This document shows positions 23,474 through 46,452 of a stretch of 64,000 nt of DNA, piece by piece. Both the position numbers and the translations under genes were made by a program. Source of the stretch: Adineta ricciae (Eukaryota > Rotifera > Eurotatoria > Adinetida > Adinetidae); contig CAJNOJ010000230.1 in assembly GCA_905250025.1 (NCBI GenBank), positions 101,121 through 165,120 of the forward strand, read 5' to 3'. The notes beneath the pieces are model-generated. The model did no database searches. It saw only the letters and a list, made by a program, of their open reading frames with translations, and was not told the DNA's origin. The first letter of the stretch is position 1; the number at the start of each line of letters is the position of its first letter.

Positions 23474-23550
23474 TGACGTCGATTTTCTTTCTCTTCTCCA
23501 TTAAAAAAATATCCTAACCGTTTTGTATGTATATATATATGAGTATATAA
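23474..23550 (+). promoter_or_regulatory. Putative promoter of the prohormone gene: CRE-like site and TATA box
   Basis: TGACGTC at 23474-23480 matches the core of a cAMP response element (CREB/ATF site). TATATAA at 23544-23550 is a plausible TATA box about 220 nt before the start codon. An acceptor (TTTTTCGTTGCAG) ending at 23720 implies a 5' UTR intron between them and the coding sequence. CRE sites are common in neuropeptide promoters, but single motif matches are weak evidence. Confidence 0.35.
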
Positions 23551-23769
23551 CATCACTTGACTACTGTAAAGTACCACTCACATTCACCTGTATGAAAAAA
23601 CTTATCAAAACCGTTCCTCTCTCTCTCTTTCTCTCTCTCTCTTCTATATGAATATTCTATTAGTCAGACAAATTGATTTCTATTACTATTCACTTCTTGT
23701 TTTTTTCTTTTTCGTTGCAGTTATTTTATTTCATATACGAATTTCTTGTCAACTATCATCCCGTCAACA

Positions 23770-25346
23770 ATGTTCAAATCCTGCTTACCGTCGAATAAAT
23801 GTCTCGTGTTGTTATTTGTATTCGTCATTATAACATCGATTCGATTTTCACACGCATCATCTCTAGAACGTTTACATAATGATGAGATGGCCGATTCATC
23901 CAGTGATGTCGCACAAGAGCAACAACGTCGAGTTGATAATCTAAAACAGTTACGTCACTTTCTGTTAACATCGAACGCCGAACAACGAGCCGGACGACGT
24001 GATAAACAAAATTTTCTCAAACGAAAGCTGGTAGGAAAGCAAAAAATAGAGAGAGAGAGAGAAAACCCACGCATTTTCTTTTTCATAGATTCGTGAATAT
24101 CTTCGATCAGTAAACGATGCCGATTCTAGTCGTTTGGAAGAAGTTAAAAGTAAGTTGATTGACTTGTTTTGCTCGCTTTTGAACTAATCAACACGCCTTG
24201 CTGCTTCTCATTTACCATCTAACATTCGCATGCGCTTGCTACGTTGCACTTTCTTGTTTAGAGCGTTTCACATACTGTAGCGTTCAAGATATGTTGCATG
24301 GCTCGCTTTGTCGCCGCCGCGCCATTCATCACTGAGCAGATCGCCTTCATCTAGTTAATGCACGAACGATATGATATTTATTTCAAAATCAAACTGCTTT
24401 ATCAATCATCTTCTTTTTCATCATCGACCTTATATACATTACTTTCAATATTTGTATAAACGCACGGTTACAAATCATACAAGTATACTTTCTCTCTATA
24501 TTCTAACAAATAAACATCAATCCATAGGAGATGATAAAACACTGTTGCTTTTTTGTTTTTCTATTCTTCTGTTTTATTCCTAAACTAACATGTAATAACG
24601 CTAAACAAATCTGTTCTATCAAACATGTTGCGTTCGGTTTCGAAAGTTGAGTCACTTCAATTTTACTAACCTGTATCATTTATTTGCTTAATTAACCGTC
24701 GCTACAACAAAGCAAATAAAAATCACCTAATTTCAAGGAATAACAACACATTTCGAATCTTGAGAGTTGCAATCGATATGTACTTTTTTAGAACGTTTCA
24801 TAACCTTCTGTAACTCATACGAAGATATAATGAATCCGGGTCAAGCTACATGTGGTTAAATGTTTCACCTATCTATCATCAACATCACCAGCATGATTGC
24901 ATTTAGAATCAACTTATTCACCATCAATCTTTCCTCTCGTTTTGTTTTCTTTCAATTTTGATGCTATTTCATTTACATAAGCATCCCGCTTAAATAAAAA
25001 CCCACTGTATTTTTTTGGTACCAGTACTTATTCAATAATACGTGAGTGAGTGCCACTAAGAATCATTCATCGTTGCTTATTTTTTTCTTTCAATCAACAA
25101 TATTATTCACATTAGTCTCTATATGTCGTACATTTTTTTTGCTGCCTGATTTACTTACCTTTCGTTCTGCATCCTATCAAATGATTGTATGATTTTTTTT
25201 TGTGTGCATGAATATTTCGTTTGATTTTCGATGTACTATGAAAAAACGCAAACATCTAAATATTCCTTTCTTTTTTCCTTCTTATAGAACGTTTTTGTGC
25301 GAGTTTGGAAGAATTTCAAGCTTCTCATGCCGCGTGCTATGGTTAG
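23770..25346 (+). CDS. Secreted neuropeptide/hormone precursor with three alternative terminal exons
   Basis: Common exon 23770-24030 encodes a signal peptide (MFKSCLPSNKCLVLLFVFVI...SHA) and an acidic spacer. After that comes Arg-Arg, the stretch VDNLKQLRHFLLTSNAEQRA and Gly-Arg-Arg, a layout that would release a 20-residue amidated peptide. Next is DKQNFLKRKL with a further basic site. After a 58-nt intron, exon 24089-24149 gives IREYLRSVNDADSSRLEEVK and ends in phase 1 with a good donor (A|GTAAGT). It can join any of three acceptors in the same phase: 24262, 24792 or 25288. Each rebuilds Lys-Arg and then Phe, encodes a 15-20-residue peptide with exactly two cysteines, and ends in a stop. 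Precursors would be about 125-131 residues. I cannot place the peptides in a known family. Splicing order and use need RNA data. Confidence 0.75.
24262..24335 (+). other. Alternative terminal exon A of the prohormone gene
   Basis: The acceptor TTCTTGTTTAG ends at 24261. Joined in phase 1, it reads Lys-Arg then FTYCSVQDMLHGSLC, then Arg-Arg-Arg-AIHH and a TGA stop at 24333-24335. The two cysteines are ten residues apart, giving a predicted disulfide loop. Processing at RRR would free a 15-residue peptide ending in Cys. There is no glycine for amidation, unlike B and C. AATAAA lies downstream at 24508-24513. Confidence 0.7.
24792..24859 (+). other. Alternative terminal exon B of the prohormone gene
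   Basis: The acceptor GTACTTTTTTAG ends at 24791. It reads Lys-Arg then FITFCNSYEDIMNPGQATC, a final Gly, and TAA at 24857-24859. The cysteines are thirteen residues apart. The terminal Gly predicts a C-terminal Cys-amide. AATAAA lies at 24993-24998. Confidence 0.75.
25288..25346 (+). other. Alternative terminal exon C of the prohormone gene
   Basis: A strong pyrimidine tract and acceptor (TTTTTTCCTTCTTATAG) end at 25287. It reads Lys-Arg then FCASLEEFQASHAACY, a final Gly, and TAG at 25344-25346. The cysteines are twelve residues apart. The terminal Gly predicts a Tyr-amide. AATAAA lies at 25417-25422, only 24 nt from the convergent SLC6 stop codon. Confidence 0.75.
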
Positions 25347-25445
25347 AAAAACGTACCAACTGTATCACTGATCTTATTCTTGTTATGACAGACATTTCTT
25401 TTATTTTAATCCACGAAATAAACAAATAAGGCTACTTGAATGATT

Positions 25446-28109
25446 TTAAAATGTTGTAGTTGATACTTTGCACTTATCCACATCCGCAATCGTGGTCAAT
25501 GTTTGCATACTGAGAGTTTTCGCCTGAATACGTTTCGTGTAGCGTCGAGATAGTTCACGATGTTCGGTTTTTGCTGGTCCCCACTTTTCATGAGGAAAAC
25601 GAGCTTCTTTAATGATCTATAGACAAACAAAGCAACGTATTCAACTATGAATTATTGTAAACATACATTCCATGTACCACGACGACAGATTTCAACGAAG
25701 AACATGTATGGAAGCCAACCGAGACAGATGATGACGACCATCCAACCAAGCGCAAGTGCCCATGTGGGATATGTATAATCATCAAGTGTTACATCTTGAT
25801 AGAATAATGAAGAGAAGATGATGGTAAACTAGAGATGACAGATGTGTCAAGAAGAATTTCACGGATGACCAAATGTGAAGAAAAAAGAAGATAATTACTA
25901 GTAGAATTAATGGAGAGATGTACTTCCAACATATTTGCCAGAATTTACTCGGACGTCGTTCTTCACCTAACATGATAGCAATGTCATCACAGAAATTATC
26001 CATCCCTAATGTGATATAAGCAATGAAATAGATGTGAAAGTCGAGAGAGTTTAGCTTGACTGTACCATAAACCCACGCAATACAGAATAATTCGACAACA
26101 CCGATGATTAACCATGGGAAACCACCGAGGTACTGATCAACAATATTTAAAACATAGAGACCACCCTAGAAAAGCAAATAGGATATCTGAGAATCGAAGA
26201 TTTTTGAAAATTAACACACCCGAGTCACCATTGAAAGACCGACTAAGAAGAACACGACAGATAAACCAAACCGAAATAGGACTATTTTCTTCGGCGTATT
26301 TAAGTACATTTTGAATTCGTCAATTATACTCGCCATGACTGTTTCCATAATGGAAAACTATTAGAAAGAAATTGTAGAATCATTCAGTTTCGAGGAGAAC
26401 TGGTAAATTTACCTCAGAACCAAACCCAAGTGTGCACATCATCAGAAAGAATAACACACACCAGAGAGGTGCAAATGGCATCATCGATAAACCTTCAGGA
26501 AAGACAACAAATGCCAAACCAGGTCCTAAATTGTACTCTTTTCTATACCGCAATTAATAAACATGCCTTACAAACCTCCTTTCGCCACATCAGCCACACT
26601 TACGCCCATTTTCGTCGCCATATGACCTAAAGACAGCTAAGAATCTCAAATTCAATACTAATCTCTTACCTAATACAGTAAAAATTGCAAATCCACTAAA
26701 TATACTGGTAAACCATGTCACACAACAAATCGCTATTGTATCACTACAGAACGCAACAAGTTCTTCTCGTTAGTTTGACAGAGACCTTTATACCGATAGA
26801 TATTATTGTTAAAATCATTGAACGATGCCATAGCTATCAACCCACCGCTGCAGCAACTCAATGCATAAAATACTTGTGTACATGCATCTTTCCAAACCTA
26901 AAAAAATCGTCTTTCAAAATGACCTCTTCCTCTCTAGCACAAACGCATCGTACCGATGGATTCTTCAGAACACTGAAATTGACTGTTCCCATGTAAAATT
27001 TAATACCTTCGACAGCGCCACTCAATGTTGCACCACGAATGATCAAAACAGTTAGCATTACATATGGAAATAGAGCAGTAAAATATGCAACCTACAATGA
27101 GAGTACGTTCATTTTCTCGATGTTCAAATCATAGTTTTTACTTTGCCTAACGATTGTACACCTTTTGATAACGCCAAAAAGCAGATTAACCAAGCGATTG
27201 CCAGAGCAACAACTAATCCAACAACAAGACCATCTGCATGTTCTACTCCGCCACTGATTTGTAACACTCGACGACTAAAAATATTAGAAAGTCTTTCCTT
27301 TCGAATTAGATAGGCTTTGGAATTCTATACTAAAAATATTCTTCACTCGGCGAACTTGTCATATCTAAAACCATACAAATATTCATCATCCAATAAACCA
27401 AGCGAATCATCAAAAGATACTTTTCATTAAGCCAAGTTCAGTTCGAGTTAAATTCGCTAATGTTTTCTGATCAGTGCACAGCGCTGTGTTCCACCAATTA
27501 TGGCATGTCGACCATGGAACAATCAATTGGAATGATGCCACCAAATAATAGAAACAATATGCAATGAGCACCATGTAATACAAACCCCAAAAACAGTTTG
27601 TGGCCATCGACGCATAGCCAATACCTATTAGAAAACAGTATCGACAGAATTTCTCGAGAAATAAGATTTGTCACAAGCCTCGCAATAATGGATTGACTTT
27701 CCAAACAACTAATGGCCCAGCACTGGTAAATTGTCCTAAGGTTAATTCCAAATAGAACACAGGTGCACCAATGAAGAAAAGCATGAGCGTATATGGTATG
27801 AGAAAAGCGCCTAGAAACGCATTGGCATACAATCGAGAAAGAACGCCATCGGCAGCAAAAATTACCTCCTCCGTTCTTGAAACAGAGATATGGAAAACGC
27901 CAAACATTGCCTAAGCCAACAGCTAGAAAACATACCAAACAAGACAGTCAATTGTCATGAAATTTTCGTACAAACCAAATGCTACTAATGTTAAAAAGAA
28001 CTCAACAGGATTTGTCCATTGTTTACGCTATAGATTACAATAGAAATATGTTGATTATACAAAAACTAGCTTCACGAACTTCTGGTGGAGTCACATCACT
28101 AGCAATCAT
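25446..28109 (-). CDS. SLC6 family Na+/Cl- dependent transporter
   Basis: Twelve-span neurotransmitter/amino-acid symporter of the plasma membrane. Exons read [17 protein letters not shown], then [20 protein letters not shown] (TM1, signature), [24 protein letters not shown], and a short extracellular loop 2 with an N-glycosylation site (NLT). Later come [55 protein letters not shown], a TM8 region and [16 protein letters not shown]. The end is the typical [16 protein letters not shown] followed by a short tail with a C-terminal TTTF. The TM1 position that is Asp in monoamine transporters is Gly here (FAVGLGN), which points to an amino-acid-type substrate (GABA, glycine, taurine or creatine). 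About twelve introns. The start at 28109 ([10 protein letters not shown]) is a best guess because the first splice join is ambiguous. Confidence 0.92.
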
Positions 28110-28494
28110 TTGAAAGACCGTCAACAGATGTTGAAAGTGAAGAATAGATTCATTCAAATATCAACGAACATTTTATCTTCGAAGATAATCTATTTAAATG
28201 ACATTTCATTGCCATTTTTTATGTCGAAATGATAACAAAAAGAGCATCATCTCTTTCGTATCGATCCATATACGAATCAATTAGACATGTTTCCCAAAAA
28301 TACCTCGTATAAAATGTCATTTTCACAGTTCTACTGAATACTATCCATCCGTGGGAGAGAAATAGTTCATTTATTTGCCAGACTAAGTGATCCTTGATAA
28401 ATTTTCATTGTTTTTGTCTTCATTGTTTGATTCTAATATGATTATATCGCGTACAAACCGTCTTCGGTAAACCAGCATTTCTCTCGATCGACAA

Positions 28495-29466
28495 ATGACA
28501 AGTAACGTTTCTCTCGAAACACCTTTGATCGATAGTCATATTGGTTTGTACATTACAATAATTGTCTCGTCTCTATCCATGATTATCTCTACATTTGCTT
28601 GTATTCTGATAATATTCCTGACGATCATTACACCAAAATTGCATTCTCCAACGAACTTACTCGTGTCTAGTACATGTTTGAGCACATTGGTTTATTTAAT
28701 CATATCCATCGTAAATAGTTTCATCTTCTATACCGATTCGAACTCTACAGATTGGTCGTGTCGAATTCGAGCTTATGCTTACTATGTTTCCTTGAACCTT
28801 GTGATTTACTCCTATGTTATCCAAGCAATATCGCGTTTATTTTGGACTGTTTTATATAAATATCGGTATCTGCTAACAATGAAATGTCATATACGTCTTC
28901 TAATTTTGAAAACAATCATTTCAACTCTCTTGCCATTATCAACTCTGATCACCGATCATGTTATTTTTCGTCCATTGAAACTCTGCGTTGTGCCAATGAA
29001 GTATACCATTCACGTTTTCTATCTTCTATCAGTCGGTTTTCTTATCCCACTGTTGATCATTACGATCCTTTACGCAATTATCTATCGACATATAATTCGT
29101 TCCACCGCAAATTTTCGACGTGCGACACGAGATGCTGAAATAGCTCGAAATATTCTCATTCTTCTTGGCATTTTCCTTCTCGGTGGTATTCCAACTGTGA
29201 TCTATGTCATTGTTTCCAACAAAACGGTATCGTCACCGAGAAGTTTATTCTTACTCGCCGTTACGGCACCTTCTGTCGCAGTGGCGAGTGAGAGAATAAT
29301 GAGTATTCTTCTCAACAAAGAAATTCGCAAAGCATTAACAATACAATGGACAGCCCGATTTGCTAGTGATCGTCTATCTACTACTGGAGTTCAACCATTA
29401 ATATTCATCAATCAATCTGCAGGAAGAGTCGCTTACATTTCGAAACTACAAGAAATTCGATCATAA
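28495..29466 (+). CDS. Intronless rhodopsin-like orphan GPCR
   Basis: A 323-residue protein with seven hydrophobic segments. N-glycosylation site (NVS) near the N-terminus, TM1 ITIIVSSLSMIIS, then LHSPTNLLVSSTCLSTLVYL (TM2). WSCRIRAYAYYVSLNLVIYSYVIQAISRLFW includes the TM3 Cys and an SRLFW sequence in the DRY position. TM5 is FLIPLLIITILYAIIY, TM6 IARNILILLGIFLLGGIPTVIYVIV, and TM7 APSVAVASERIMSILLNKEIRKAL, where NPxxY is replaced. The lack of canonical DRY and NPxxY, and the lack of introns, fit the large lineage-specific single-exon GPCR families of bdelloids. The ligand is unknown. It is head-to-head with the SLC6 gene. Confidence 0.85.
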   Translation: MTSNVSLETPLIDSHIGLYITIIVSSLSMIISTFACILIIFLTIITPKLHSPTNLLVSSTCLSTLVYLIISIVNSFIFYTDSNSTDWSCRIRAYAYYVSLNLVIYSYVIQAISRLFWTVLYKYRYLLTMKCHIRLLILKTIISTLLPLSTLITDHVIFRPLKLCVVPMKYTIHVFYLLSVGFLIPLLIITILYAIIYRHIIRSTANFRRATRDAEIARNILILLGIFLLGGIPTVIYVIVSNKTVSSPRSLFLLAVTAPSVAVASERIMSILLNKEIRKALTIQWTARFASDRLSTTGVQPLIFINQSAGRVAYISKLQEIRS

Positions 29467-42315: not shown

Positions 42316-44078
42316 TTAAATCGCTTTGTCGGCCGAGTCGCGAGTTAAAACTGGTATATATTGTACAGATGCTTGTCGCTTCCTGAACATAGTTGTCACG
42401 AGAGTAATAAGGAATAGACCAACAACTATTGAACTTAAGAAAACTACCATTGCTTTGGCACTTCGACTACTACCTATAAAAGATCAACTAATTTACGGAC
42501 TCGGGCAAAGAGGTCTTACTAGAAGGTTTATTTTCGCATTCAACTTCCGCCTTGCCCGGAAAACGAGGTTGATAGATTGTGGTGAAAATGTCCAGTGGAC
42601 ATTCAACCTTTGGACAACCTTCCAATAAATATGGCTGTGGTTTATTTGAGTCTGTCACATTGAGATATTCCACTTTAACATAGTATGTTTGATCTAGAAT
42701 GTGAGTGAGAGATGGAATAGTGTGAATGATCGAATGCAGGTGAATTTACTTTGTTTGTAGAGATCAATGAAAAGAGCGGATGCATACTAGAAGATAAAGA
42801 GGGAGATAGAAGGTGTAACACATTTAGTTTATCTGGATATACTTGTGGTTGAAATGGATAATGGATGTGAAGAAAAGCTAATGCTGCACTGACTGTTGTA
42901 TCGTGCTACGAAATGCGGTTGATATTCAATTAGTCGTAGAAGTAAATAATGTACTTACAGCTGAATACATTCTTAGTTTGTAAAACGTATCATGATGCAC
43001 TGATCTATTCATATTTGACCAAATGTCTTGTATCACTGGACCTGTAAAAGATATAATGCTTGTCACTTCGGTGAATAATGATTCTGGGCTACCTGACCTC
43101 CTCTTATGCGTTTTACTGTATCATTTACAAACGAAAAGTAGAAGATAATGTTATTTATTTCTGCTAAAGTCTTTCTAACATCTTCGGTAGCCCATGCCGG
43201 TGCTTTGTTATGTATGTGCTAACGAGAAGAGAAAAACACAGAAAATATCATCTATCGATGTCAATATTTCAATCATTACTGCAACCAAAACACTGTCAGG
43301 GATATGTTGTGTGTTGTATAGAGTGATATTACTGGCATTTGTCCACATTTGGAGTTTTTCGAAAAATGGCTAAATAGACAATCGACATTCGCATCATTTT
43401 ATGAAAAACAACAATCATACTTGATAAAATTCATTCAATTGTTTGAACGTTTCGCTCTGATAAGCTTCGTTAGTGATGCGATTGACTATGGGACAATCAT
43501 TCTGTCCAAGAAGCTAAATGAACAAAACCAATCGGTCATGTCTTGTTTTTCTCTTGTGACATACAAAATCGTTTGCCGCACGTTCGGTGTGCATTGAAAT
43601 AGGTTGAACGGACATTCGATTATTCGATATATTTCTTTGATGATACAAACCGTGAAGGTTCGATTCAGCAGACATCAATGTCCGATCAAAGTCCGTTGAA
43701 CGAACAAAAATCTCGCGAGGATCGAACGTACTACTGAGAATCGATCCATATCGAGTGCGAAGATACTGACCAAGGCGATACTGTTGTTCAATACCAATGG
43801 ATGTCAATTGACCGTATCTAAAGAAAAGCGGAAAGTTAGATGCGAAAATAGAACGATGACGAAAACGTACCCATTGGGCCAATTTTCTTCTTTAATTAGA
43901 TTTGATGGATAGGACGCGAGAGGTGTGCGATCACCATGTCTGAATATCTGAAAAAAAAACTGTGAGAAAAAGATTTATGAACGGAAATTGACGTACTTAC
44001 AACATGACCTGCGATCAGTTTCATACGAGAGGCATTGGCGCAAGTACAAAGAACGAAGAAAATCAAATATATGTACAT
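42316..44078 (-). CDS. Histidine acid phosphatase, copy 1 (ACP2/ACP3 type)
   Basis: Lysosomal or secreted phosphomonoesterase. Signal peptide MYIYLIFFVLCTCANA, then the catalytic RHGDRTP (IFRHGDRTPLASYPSN; the His is phosphorylated). YGQLTSIGIEQQYRLGQYLRTRY, REIFVRSTDFDRTLMSAESNL and HDTTVSAALA (the HD motif supplying the proton donor) follow, then SALFIDLYK and VEYLNVTDSNKPQPYLLEGCPKVECPLDIF. The last exon (about 42471-42316) encodes one membrane span (MVVFLSSIVVGLFLITLVTTMF) and a short cytosolic tail ending DSADKAI. The short frame ending PESVN at 42488 is read-through into the final intron, not a truncation. All catalytic motifs are present. Head-to-tail with copy 2 upstream. Confidence 0.9.
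42584..42795 (-). repeat. Near-identical tract shared with acid phosphatase copy 2
   Basis: These 212 bases match 44961-45172 with one mismatch, spanning two exons and the short intron between them. Sequence on either side is clearly diverged. See the matching tract. Confidence 0.9.
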
Positions 44079-44687: not shown

Positions 44688-46452
44688 TTAAACTGTTGGT
44701 TCAGCGATGTCTGCAGACTCCAATGGCATGTATGAATTGTGAGATCGTCGATAGACATAGATGAAGAGAGCGATAACAATAACTGTAAGAGTAACAACTG
44801 CCACGCTCAAGCTGATTATCATTATCTTGTTATTTCCGTCATCACCTAGAATGAATATAGTAGTTAAAATAGAGAACATCGAATATTTACTTGGTGGTTT
44901 GTTCTTGCTTCCACATTCAACTTCCACTTTGCCTGGAAAACGAGGCTGGTAGATTGCGGTGAAAATGTCCAGTGGACATTCAACCTTTGGACAACCTTCC
45001 AATAAATATGGCTGTGGTTTATTTGAATCTGTCACATTGAGATATTCCACTTTAACATAGTATGTTTGATCTAGAATGTGAGTGAGAGATGGAATAGTGT
45101 GAATGATCGAATGCAGGTGAATTTACTTTGTTTGTAGAGATCAATGAAAAGAGCGGATGCATACTAGAAGATGAGAAAGAGAATAGAATGTGCAGATGTT
45201 AATTTAGTTGGAGTTACTTGAGGTTGATGTGGATAGTTTATGCGAAGAAAAGCTAATGCTGCACTAACTGTCGTATCGTGCTAAAAGTAGAATTTTTCCA
45301 ATTATAGTTTTGAGTTAAATGCGTAACTTACCGCTGAGTACATCTTTAGCTTGGGAATCGCAAAACCGTGTTTAGATTGGTTCATATTTGACCAGACATC
45401 TTGTACAAATGGGCCTATACAAAATGCGAATTGTTACCATGGTAGCAAAGAATAATACTTAAGTATTTTACCTCCTCGAATGCGTTTTGTATCGTCGTCC
45501 AAATAAAGAAAATGAAATGAAAGTTGGTTGATAGCAGTGAGATTATTTCGAACTTCTTCAGTAGCCCATGCAGGCTCTTTGTGATAGAGATGCTAGAACC
45601 AATAATGTAACAGATTATACATTCATTTTCACAGGTAGATCCTTACCTCAACAAATATTGTATCAGCTATATCCCATGCATTGTACATAGTGATATTACT
45701 AATATCTGTCCAAACTTGAAGTTTTTCGAAAAATGGCTAGATGACAAAACAGACAGAATATTTGTTTCAAATCAAAGATGTTACTTTACCTTATAGTACG
45801 CATTCATTCTTTTGAATTCATCAGTTTGATACACTCCTTGTTCGATTTCATCATATCTCGGACAAGTGTTCACACCGAGCAGCTAAACCAACAAAATCAA
45901 TAGAGTACGATTCAAACATTTTTTCATGACATACAAAATCTTCTGACATCGGTACAGTATGTATCGGAATAGGTTGAACAGGCACCTTGTCACTTGTTAC
46001 ATTCATTGCTGGATATAAACCGATCAGATTCGATTGTGCAGACATCAACGTTCGATCATAATCTGTCGAACGAACAACAATCTCACGTGGATCAAAGGTC
46101 GCATTTAGAATTGATTCATATCGAGTGCGAATGTATTGACCAAGACGGTGATGTTGTTCAATTCCCGTAGATGTCAATTGACCGTACCTGTAAATGGAAA
46201 GAGATATGTTTAATGATGAAAGAATGACAATGAAGTACCCATTGGGCCAGTCTTTTTCCTTCATAGGATCTGTTGGATATGTAGAAATAGGTGTGCGATC
46301 GCCATGTCTGAATAGCTGAAAAAGAATAGAAAGTTCGTACGTTTATTGATGACGATCGATGCACTTACGACATGACCTGCAATAAGTTCCATCTGTTGAG
46401 CATGGATTGTGCTTAAGAGAAGAATAAAAATACTAACTAAGTAGACGTTCAT
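44688..46452 (-). CDS. Histidine acid phosphatase, copy 2 (ACP2/ACP3 type)
   Basis: Tandem paralogue of copy 1 with the same exon plan. Signal peptide MNVYLVSIFILLLSTIHA, catalytic LFRHGDRTPISTYP, then WPNGYGQLTSTGIEQHHRLGQYIRTRY, REIVVRSTDYDRTLMSAQSNL, LLGVNTCPRYDEIEQG, HDTTVSAALAFL, SALFIDLYK and the VEYLNVTDSNKPQPYLLEGCPKVE block. The tail has a membrane span (MIISLSVAVVTLTVIVIALFIYVY). It ends RRSHNSYMPLESADIAEPTV, with a YMPL tyrosine signal of the YxxL type used for lysosomal delivery of ACP2. Copy 1 has YIPV at the comparable place. About nine introns. Confidence 0.92.
44961..45172 (-). repeat. Near-identical tract shared with acid phosphatase copy 1
   Basis: Partner of 42584-42795: 211 of 212 bases identical by eye, including an intron, with the same orientation. 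Confidence 0.9.

Follow-up and report, generated by a model that had tools for sequence, protein, structure and literature searches.

The locus described here raises the question of whether one small gene could make different peptide hormones by choosing among alternative last exons. We addressed it within the window, that is, the whole stretch of DNA analysed (64,000 bases, 36.3% G+C), and we consider it probable that the locus is a secreted peptide-hormone precursor gene in which the donor at 24150 joins one of three terminal exons, each contributing one ring peptide; its products would probably be neuropeptides. A secreted precursor with competing terminal exons had been proposed in the preliminary description of this DNA and, with one strong donor and three phase-matched exons of two cysteines each, is still the best reading of the sequence. 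The features on which it is built are collected in Table 1.

Table 1. Features of the putative precursor gene, in positions of the window; the coding part of each terminal exon ends with the last base of its stop codon.
Feature	Position	Strand	Remarks
Coding exon 1	23770..24030	+	start codon, predicted signal peptide MFKSCLPSNKCLVLLFVFVIITSIRFSHA, onset of common propeptide; from translation
Intron 1	24031..24088	+	58 nt, phase 0; donor GTAGGAAAG, acceptor TTTTCTTTTTCATAG
Coding exon 2	24089..24149	+	IREYLRSVNDADSSRLEEVK, then first base of split Lys codon
Phase-1 splice donor GTAAGT, common to the three terminal exons	24150..24155	+	
Alternative terminal exon A, coding part	24262..24335	+	KRF-TYCSVQDMLHGSLC-RRR-AIHH-stop
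Candidate poly(A) signal AATAAA, exon A	24509..24514	+	173 nt beyond stop
Alternative terminal exon B, coding part	24792..24859	+	KRF-ITFCNSYEDIMNPGQATC-G-stop
Candidate poly(A) signal AATAAA, exon B	24993..24998	+	133 nt beyond stop
Alternative terminal exon C, coding part	25288..25346	+	KRF-CASLEEFQASHAACY-G-stop
Candidate poly(A) signal AATAAA, exon C	25417..25422	+	70 nt beyond stop

The shared part of the gene, described earlier as a signal peptide and common propeptide followed by a phase-1 donor at 24149/24150, agrees with our coordinates and translation. The precursor begins with a hydrophobic, signal-peptide-like stretch (hydropathy peak of 3.2 for the 13-residue span from residue 12, compared to a best value of -0.02 for spans starting beyond residue 30), and the signal peptide would be cut C-terminal to Ala; the propeptide that follows is charged and carries several basic pairs. 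Were intron 1 retained, read-through would hit a stop ending at 24096. The GTAAGT at 24150 is the only one between 23700 and 25440, and the plus strand of the window holds 19; donors of the form GTRRG are absent from 24262-24791 and from 25288-25430, and two of them, at 25042 and 25046, lie between the AATAAA of exon B and exon C. Two features of prohormone genes whose peptides sit in alternative terminal exons are present: (i) common signal and propeptide exons with a shared donor and (ii) same-phase acceptors downstream of that donor, here three, each leading to a separate peptide and stop. Upstream of the gene, a strong acceptor-like tract, TTTTTTTCTTTTTCGTTGCAG, occupies 23700-23720, 49 nt before the ATG at 23770, with no ATG from its end (23720) to that start codon, and is a candidate for the end of a 5'-UTR intron or for a trans-splicing acceptor. 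A bdelloid spliced-leader stretch is absent from the window, which is uninformative.

Between the donor and position 25440 there are 13 YAG sites, and only three of them (24262, 24792, and 25288) rebuild Lys-Arg, in each case before Phe, when joined in phase 1. Translation of these joins, which yield precursors of 131, 129, and 126 amino acids for A, B, and C with the C-terminal ends KRFTYCSVQDMLHGSLCRRRAIHH, KRFITFCNSYEDIMNPGQATCG, and KRFCASLEEFQASHAACYG, respectively, reproduced what had been reported for all three acceptors, namely KRF, exactly two Cys, and a stop. Two details of that account of the acceptors need amending: the peptides had been given as 15 to 20 residues long, with two Cys each, and while the cysteine count holds, the frames past Lys-Arg measure 22, 20, and 17 residues; and the rebuilt Lys-Arg is correct but forms part of a fuller site, Lys-Lys-Arg, whose first Lys lies entirely within exon 2. 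The intron interrupts the second Lys codon, and the Lys-Arg site therefore exists in full only once splicing has taken place; read-through at 24149 into the intron would give V-K-S-K-L-I-D instead. The pyrimidine fractions of the acceptors, ranked against the 1384 plus-strand YAG sites of the window, are 0.93 for C (top 0.4%), 0.80 for A (top 4.1%), and 0.67 for B (top 19%). C and A thereby have the best tracts among the 13 sites, and B, the weakest of the three, ties with 24355, 25025, and 25392.

Convertase and carboxypeptidase action is ordinary prohormone processing, and under it peptide A would end at its second Cys, B at a second-Cys amide, and C at a Tyr-amide one residue further. Exons B and C encode a C-terminal Gly, fit for amidation, which exon A lacks; in A, Arg-Arg-Arg stands directly after the second Cys and is followed by AIHH, and because of this triplet A would end like B and C. 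The predicted mature peptides are FTYCSVQDMLHGSLC for A, a free acid once the Arg-Arg-Arg is trimmed, FITFCNSYEDIMNPGQATC-amide for B, and FCASLEEFQASHAACY-amide for C, which amount to 15, 19, and 16 residues, with 10, 13, and 12 residues between the cysteines. All three follow a common plan, that is, an N-terminal Phe, one to four residues, the first Cys, the 10, 13, or 12 residues of the loop, the second Cys, and the end, and are probably closed into rings by a disulphide. The earlier statement that B and C are amidated is kept as a prediction from their Gly; that A is simply unamidated undersells it, as the Arg-Arg-Arg would yield a free-acid ring peptide that ends alike.

This anatomy suggests that all three terminal exons are used, with each of the three peptides presumably active, and we propose the following mechanism. 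The two shared coding exons would supply the signal peptide and propeptide, and the donor at 24150 would be spliced to 24262, 24792, or 25288, each the start of a separate terminal exon that has a stop codon of its own and probably a separate site of polyadenylation. Because every terminal exon carries its own stop, one transcript would give one peptide. The terminal exons would compete for the donor, with cleavage and polyadenylation behind an upstream exon favouring that exon and skipping of an exon passing the choice to the next; the splice would complete the Lys-Lys-Arg convertase site immediately before the peptide, and the terminal exon picked would determine the hormone made. The hexamer TGCATG, the binding word of the Fox splicing factors, which act on calcitonin/CGRP, occurs at 24295, within exon A, and at 25205, 83 nt upstream of exon C; the plus-strand rate of the window predicts about 0.5 copies for this region, and the two observed are too few to mean anything.

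The preliminary description had called the peptides alignable without gaps after the first Cys and had taken this as a sign of exon duplication. We find that likeness to be weak: over the six residues past the first Cys, ungapped BLOSUM62 scores are -1 for A-B, -3 for A-C, and +8 for B-C, so that only the last pair scores positively. Gapped alignment of the residues between the cysteines gave P values of 0.011, 0.17, and 0.066 for A-B, A-C, and B-C (5000 shuffles, uncorrected), and exon DNA after the initial nine bases showed no significant likeness (P = 0.067, 0.22, and 0.068). Local alignment of the stretches that contain the exons (24150-24559 for A, 24560-25009 for B, and 25010-25444 for C; 200 shuffles) did not clearly exceed the shuffles either (P = 0.11, 0.40, and 0.075), and the top A-B match consists of the acceptor and the start of the exon. 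Because the sequences are not clearly alike, the case for homology is carried by the same-phase plan of acceptor, KRF, two Cys, and stop. On these grounds tandem duplication of a single ancestral exon is the most likely origin of the three; if they are copies, the event would be old, as the stretches do not clearly beat their shuffles. What has persisted is what a working prohormone exon needs, and this suggests selection.

The alternative that fares best accepts a real precursor gene but holds that function is confined to one or two of the terminal exons, the others being duplication relics rarely or never spliced. The low similarity between the copies, the missing amidation Gly of A, and the acceptor tract of B, ordinary in that 19% of the 1384 YAG sites of the window are as good, all speak for this. 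Yet the acceptor, phase, KRF, open frame, two Cys, and stop have been kept in three out of three exons amid DNA without clear similarity, and the Arg-Arg-Arg of A falls exactly behind its second Cys. We regard decay of one or two exons as unlikely, though it is the rival to be taken most seriously.

Far less credible is a chance line-up of unrelated splice-like sites, whether downstream of a one-peptide gene or where there is no gene at all. Its appeal is that YAG, AATAAA, and short frames are each common singly. This is well illustrated by the candidate poly(A) signals, for which the preliminary description gave 24993 and 25417 correctly and misplaced the first by one base, at 24508. AATAAA is abundant in DNA of 36% G+C, with 67 copies on the plus strand of the window, and chance alone would place one within 175, 135, and 71 nt (the observed distances for A, B, and C after rounding up) with probabilities of 0.17, 0.13, and 0.07, so that the hexamers are individually weak evidence for terminal exons. 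An additional AATAAA at 24715, between exons A and B, is possibly a second poly(A) site of exon A, or chance. The combination of features is another matter. When the YAG sites of both strands were joined in the phase of donor 24150 and a stop in frame no more than about 150 nt away was required, 2486 sites passed (1204 on the plus strand and 1282 on the minus strand), and 77 of these start with KR or RR. Of these 77, 7 continue with Phe and 6 encode 12 to 40 amino acids with exactly two Cys. KRF together with exactly two Cys in 12 to 40 residues is found at 3 of the 2486 sites, solely exons A, B, and C, all behind donor 24150; among the remaining 74 KR/RR sites of the window, the two-Cys property is seen in three, compared to three out of three here. 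In 4000 order-1 Markov versions of the region, none had at least two KRF sites (three observed, simulated mean 0.009), and of the simulated KR starts about 7.7% (0.00825/0.1075, a ratio of means) had two Cys in 12 to 40 amino acids. Both patterns, KRF and KRF with two Cys, were defined only once the finding had been seen, but the margin is wide even so, and the arrangement of KRF/two-Cys exons is non-random.

The least tenable alternative makes this an NPY/NPF-type gene, with KRF left over from the RxRF end of NPF and the tails mere flanking peptides, and it is barely credible, for although LIREYLRSVND around exon 2 resembles the NPF helix LRxYLxxxN and the codon right before Arg-Phe is interrupted by an intron, all three exons lack a Gly after Arg-Phe, no NPY match was listed by Pfam at E<=10 (where the HMMER filters discard most matches beyond an E of about 0.1), and the intron here is phase 1 and one codon earlier than that of NPF genes, which is phase 2 and within the Arg codon; with the amidation Gly and any Pfam match missing, we rejected membership of that family, defined by a C-terminal RxRF- or RxRY-amide.

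That no described family has these sequences, as first suggested, is in line with our searches of Pfam, NCBIfam, PDB (B precursor), and eleven two-cysteine hormones, and the peptide family is probably an orphan. Pfam gave Helicase_IV_N at E values of 0.093, 0.097, and 0.11 for the A, B, and C precursors and DUF4760 at 0.13 for the B precursor, and the PDB search with the B precursor gave pantothenate kinase 1 (E = 0.27 and 0.31) and 'Fiber-n5-Zn1-HEHE-917' (E = 0.78); we take all of these as chance. There was no match in the prokaryote-oriented NCBIfam for the A precursor minus its signal peptide, exon B alone, or the end of the C precursor, and none in Rfam across 23500-25600. No relatives emerged from viral_contigs, where the common part as the query gave 30 pattern matches, or from genome_contigs, where the B precursor gave 45, and not one of these matches was confirmed; the searches carry little weight because both collections are virus or prokaryote DNA. 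Within the window, tblastn found the gene itself, with other matches at E values of 0.3 or worse and hence no second copy. For bdelloids, PMC5818035 cites genome duplication.

Alignment of the three peptides with the eleven known two-cysteine hormones (33 comparisons) gave a best P of 0.059, and none was convincing. Members of the calcitonin/CGRP/DH31 family are peptides of 30 to 37 residues (roughly 32 to 37 in calcitonin/CGRP) with a ring at the N-terminus, about five residues between its cysteines, and a Pro-amide or aromatic-amide end, and a place in calcitonin/CGRP/DH31 was rejected on the 10, 13, and 12 residues between the cysteines, the length of 15 to 19 residues, and the lack of a Pfam match. 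Somatostatin, allatostatin C, and urotensin II were set aside because their C-terminal ring with an aromatic core (e.g., FWK) is not seen here: peptide A equals somatostatin-14 in having 10 residues between the cysteines without matching its core, and the best fit to this group was C versus allatostatin C (P = 0.119). CCAP is PFCNAFTGC-amide, with five residues between the cysteines; B has TFCNSY...ATC-amide but 13 residues in between, and this alignment, also rejected, is the one with P = 0.059, the best of the 33. The EP/CCHamide peptide sits right behind the signal peptide, in which it differs from the peptides described here. In PMC6617912, this two-cysteine family is reported from both rotifer species examined and has residues between the second Cys and the amide, again unlike our peptides. 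CNMamide was rejected on its rings and ends, since ours have 10, 13, and 12 residues between the cysteines and no Asn-Met end, compared with the termite peptides given in PMC4237046. Among the open-access literature matches listed, titles and abstract openings named no such gene.

The putative precursor gene lies among animal-type pieces, comprising p24/GOLD, ENTH, SIS domain, TBC, SNF transporter, and rhodopsin-type receptor sequences (Pfam matches for 8 of 10 frames tested). A minus-strand open reading frame without a Pfam match (25446-25616) has its low end 29 nt from the AATAAA of exon C, a spacing so short that the 3' ends of two convergent genes may almost meet, and it is adjoined by SNF transporter frames at 25782-26165 and 27498-27947. 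Beyond the transporter, at a distance of about 3 kb, runs an uninterrupted rhodopsin-type receptor frame (28471-29466; 7tm_1, E = 4.2e-9; Srsx, E = 1.8e-8), whose location alone makes no link to the peptides. Farther away, the minus-strand frames 43514-43891 and 45851-46342, the latter matching His_Phos_2 (E = 1.5e-22), resemble each other by eye in the list of open reading frames and are possibly a tandem gene duplication.

Going beyond the secreted precursor with three competing terminal exons, we speculate, with rather less than even confidence, that the locus is a three-way switch founding an unreported rotifer peptide-hormone family, with ancient, selected exons and a convertase site completed by splicing. 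In that event, the divergence in sequence and ring size would probably mean different receptors, and since the convertase site is made only by splicing, unspliced or mis-spliced message would yield no hormone. If the proposed switch is real, the locus would, moreover, offer a compact system in which a duplicated terminal exon diverges under selection for little beyond frame, dibasic site, and cysteines. Deeper sampling of gnathiferans is missing, and a study of three bdelloid Rotaria species gave very few precursors, according to PMC8557429; PMC6425005 is a survey of that kind and mentions a few families from Rotaria. Short precursors with the mature peptide in a tiny last exon would be easily missed by gene predictors, so that genes of this sort may contribute to the low number.

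The closest comparisons are with genes whose mature peptide depends on the choice of exon. In vertebrate calcitonin/CGRP, a common propeptide is followed, through a splice choice, by one or another disulphide peptide, each preceded by a dibasic site; there are two outputs, compared to three here, and we found no similarity between the peptides. The preliminary description rightly named this gene as a precedent, but it is not the only one, as insect genes described in PMC4237046 share the arrangement. Alternative splicing of vertebrate CT/CGRP is also recounted in PMC12638048, where splicing of sea cucumber AjCT sets one or two calcitonin-type two-cysteine peptides per transcript; this resembles our case in the splice-set content of two-cysteine peptides and differs in not being a choice of one among three. 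In locust neuroparsin, two shared coding exons precede one of five alternative coding exons, an order of shared and peptide-bearing exons like the one proposed here, whereas the neuroparsins (PMC4237046) form a known family of many-cysteine proteins whose core is conserved, and our alternatives are barely alike. The same source describes, for the CNMa gene of the termite Zootermopsis, two alternative exons, each encoding one complete two-cysteine amidated peptide with four residues between the cysteines and then Asn-Met-amide, the first exon silencing the second through an in-frame stop when included; those two are close variants of a single peptide, in contrast to the three strongly divergent peptides with 10, 13, and 12 residues between the cysteines found here. 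Locust myosuppressin likewise switches its mature peptide by two alternative coding exons, but its peptides, as printed in PMC4237046, are without Cys, and the two transcripts of termite calcitonin, from the same source, resemble ours in switching the mature peptide by alternative coding exons and differ in encoding Pro-amide peptides, three copies of them in one transcript. In the snail, FMRFamide transcripts show mutually exclusive expression in single neurons, as stated in PMC4208409. Given the insect, vertebrate, and sea cucumber cases, the kind of switch is already known, and three outputs do not set a record; if our reading is correct, the alternative-terminal-exon hormone switch of vertebrates and several insects extends to a rotifer-like lineage, where a single gene would have three outputs.
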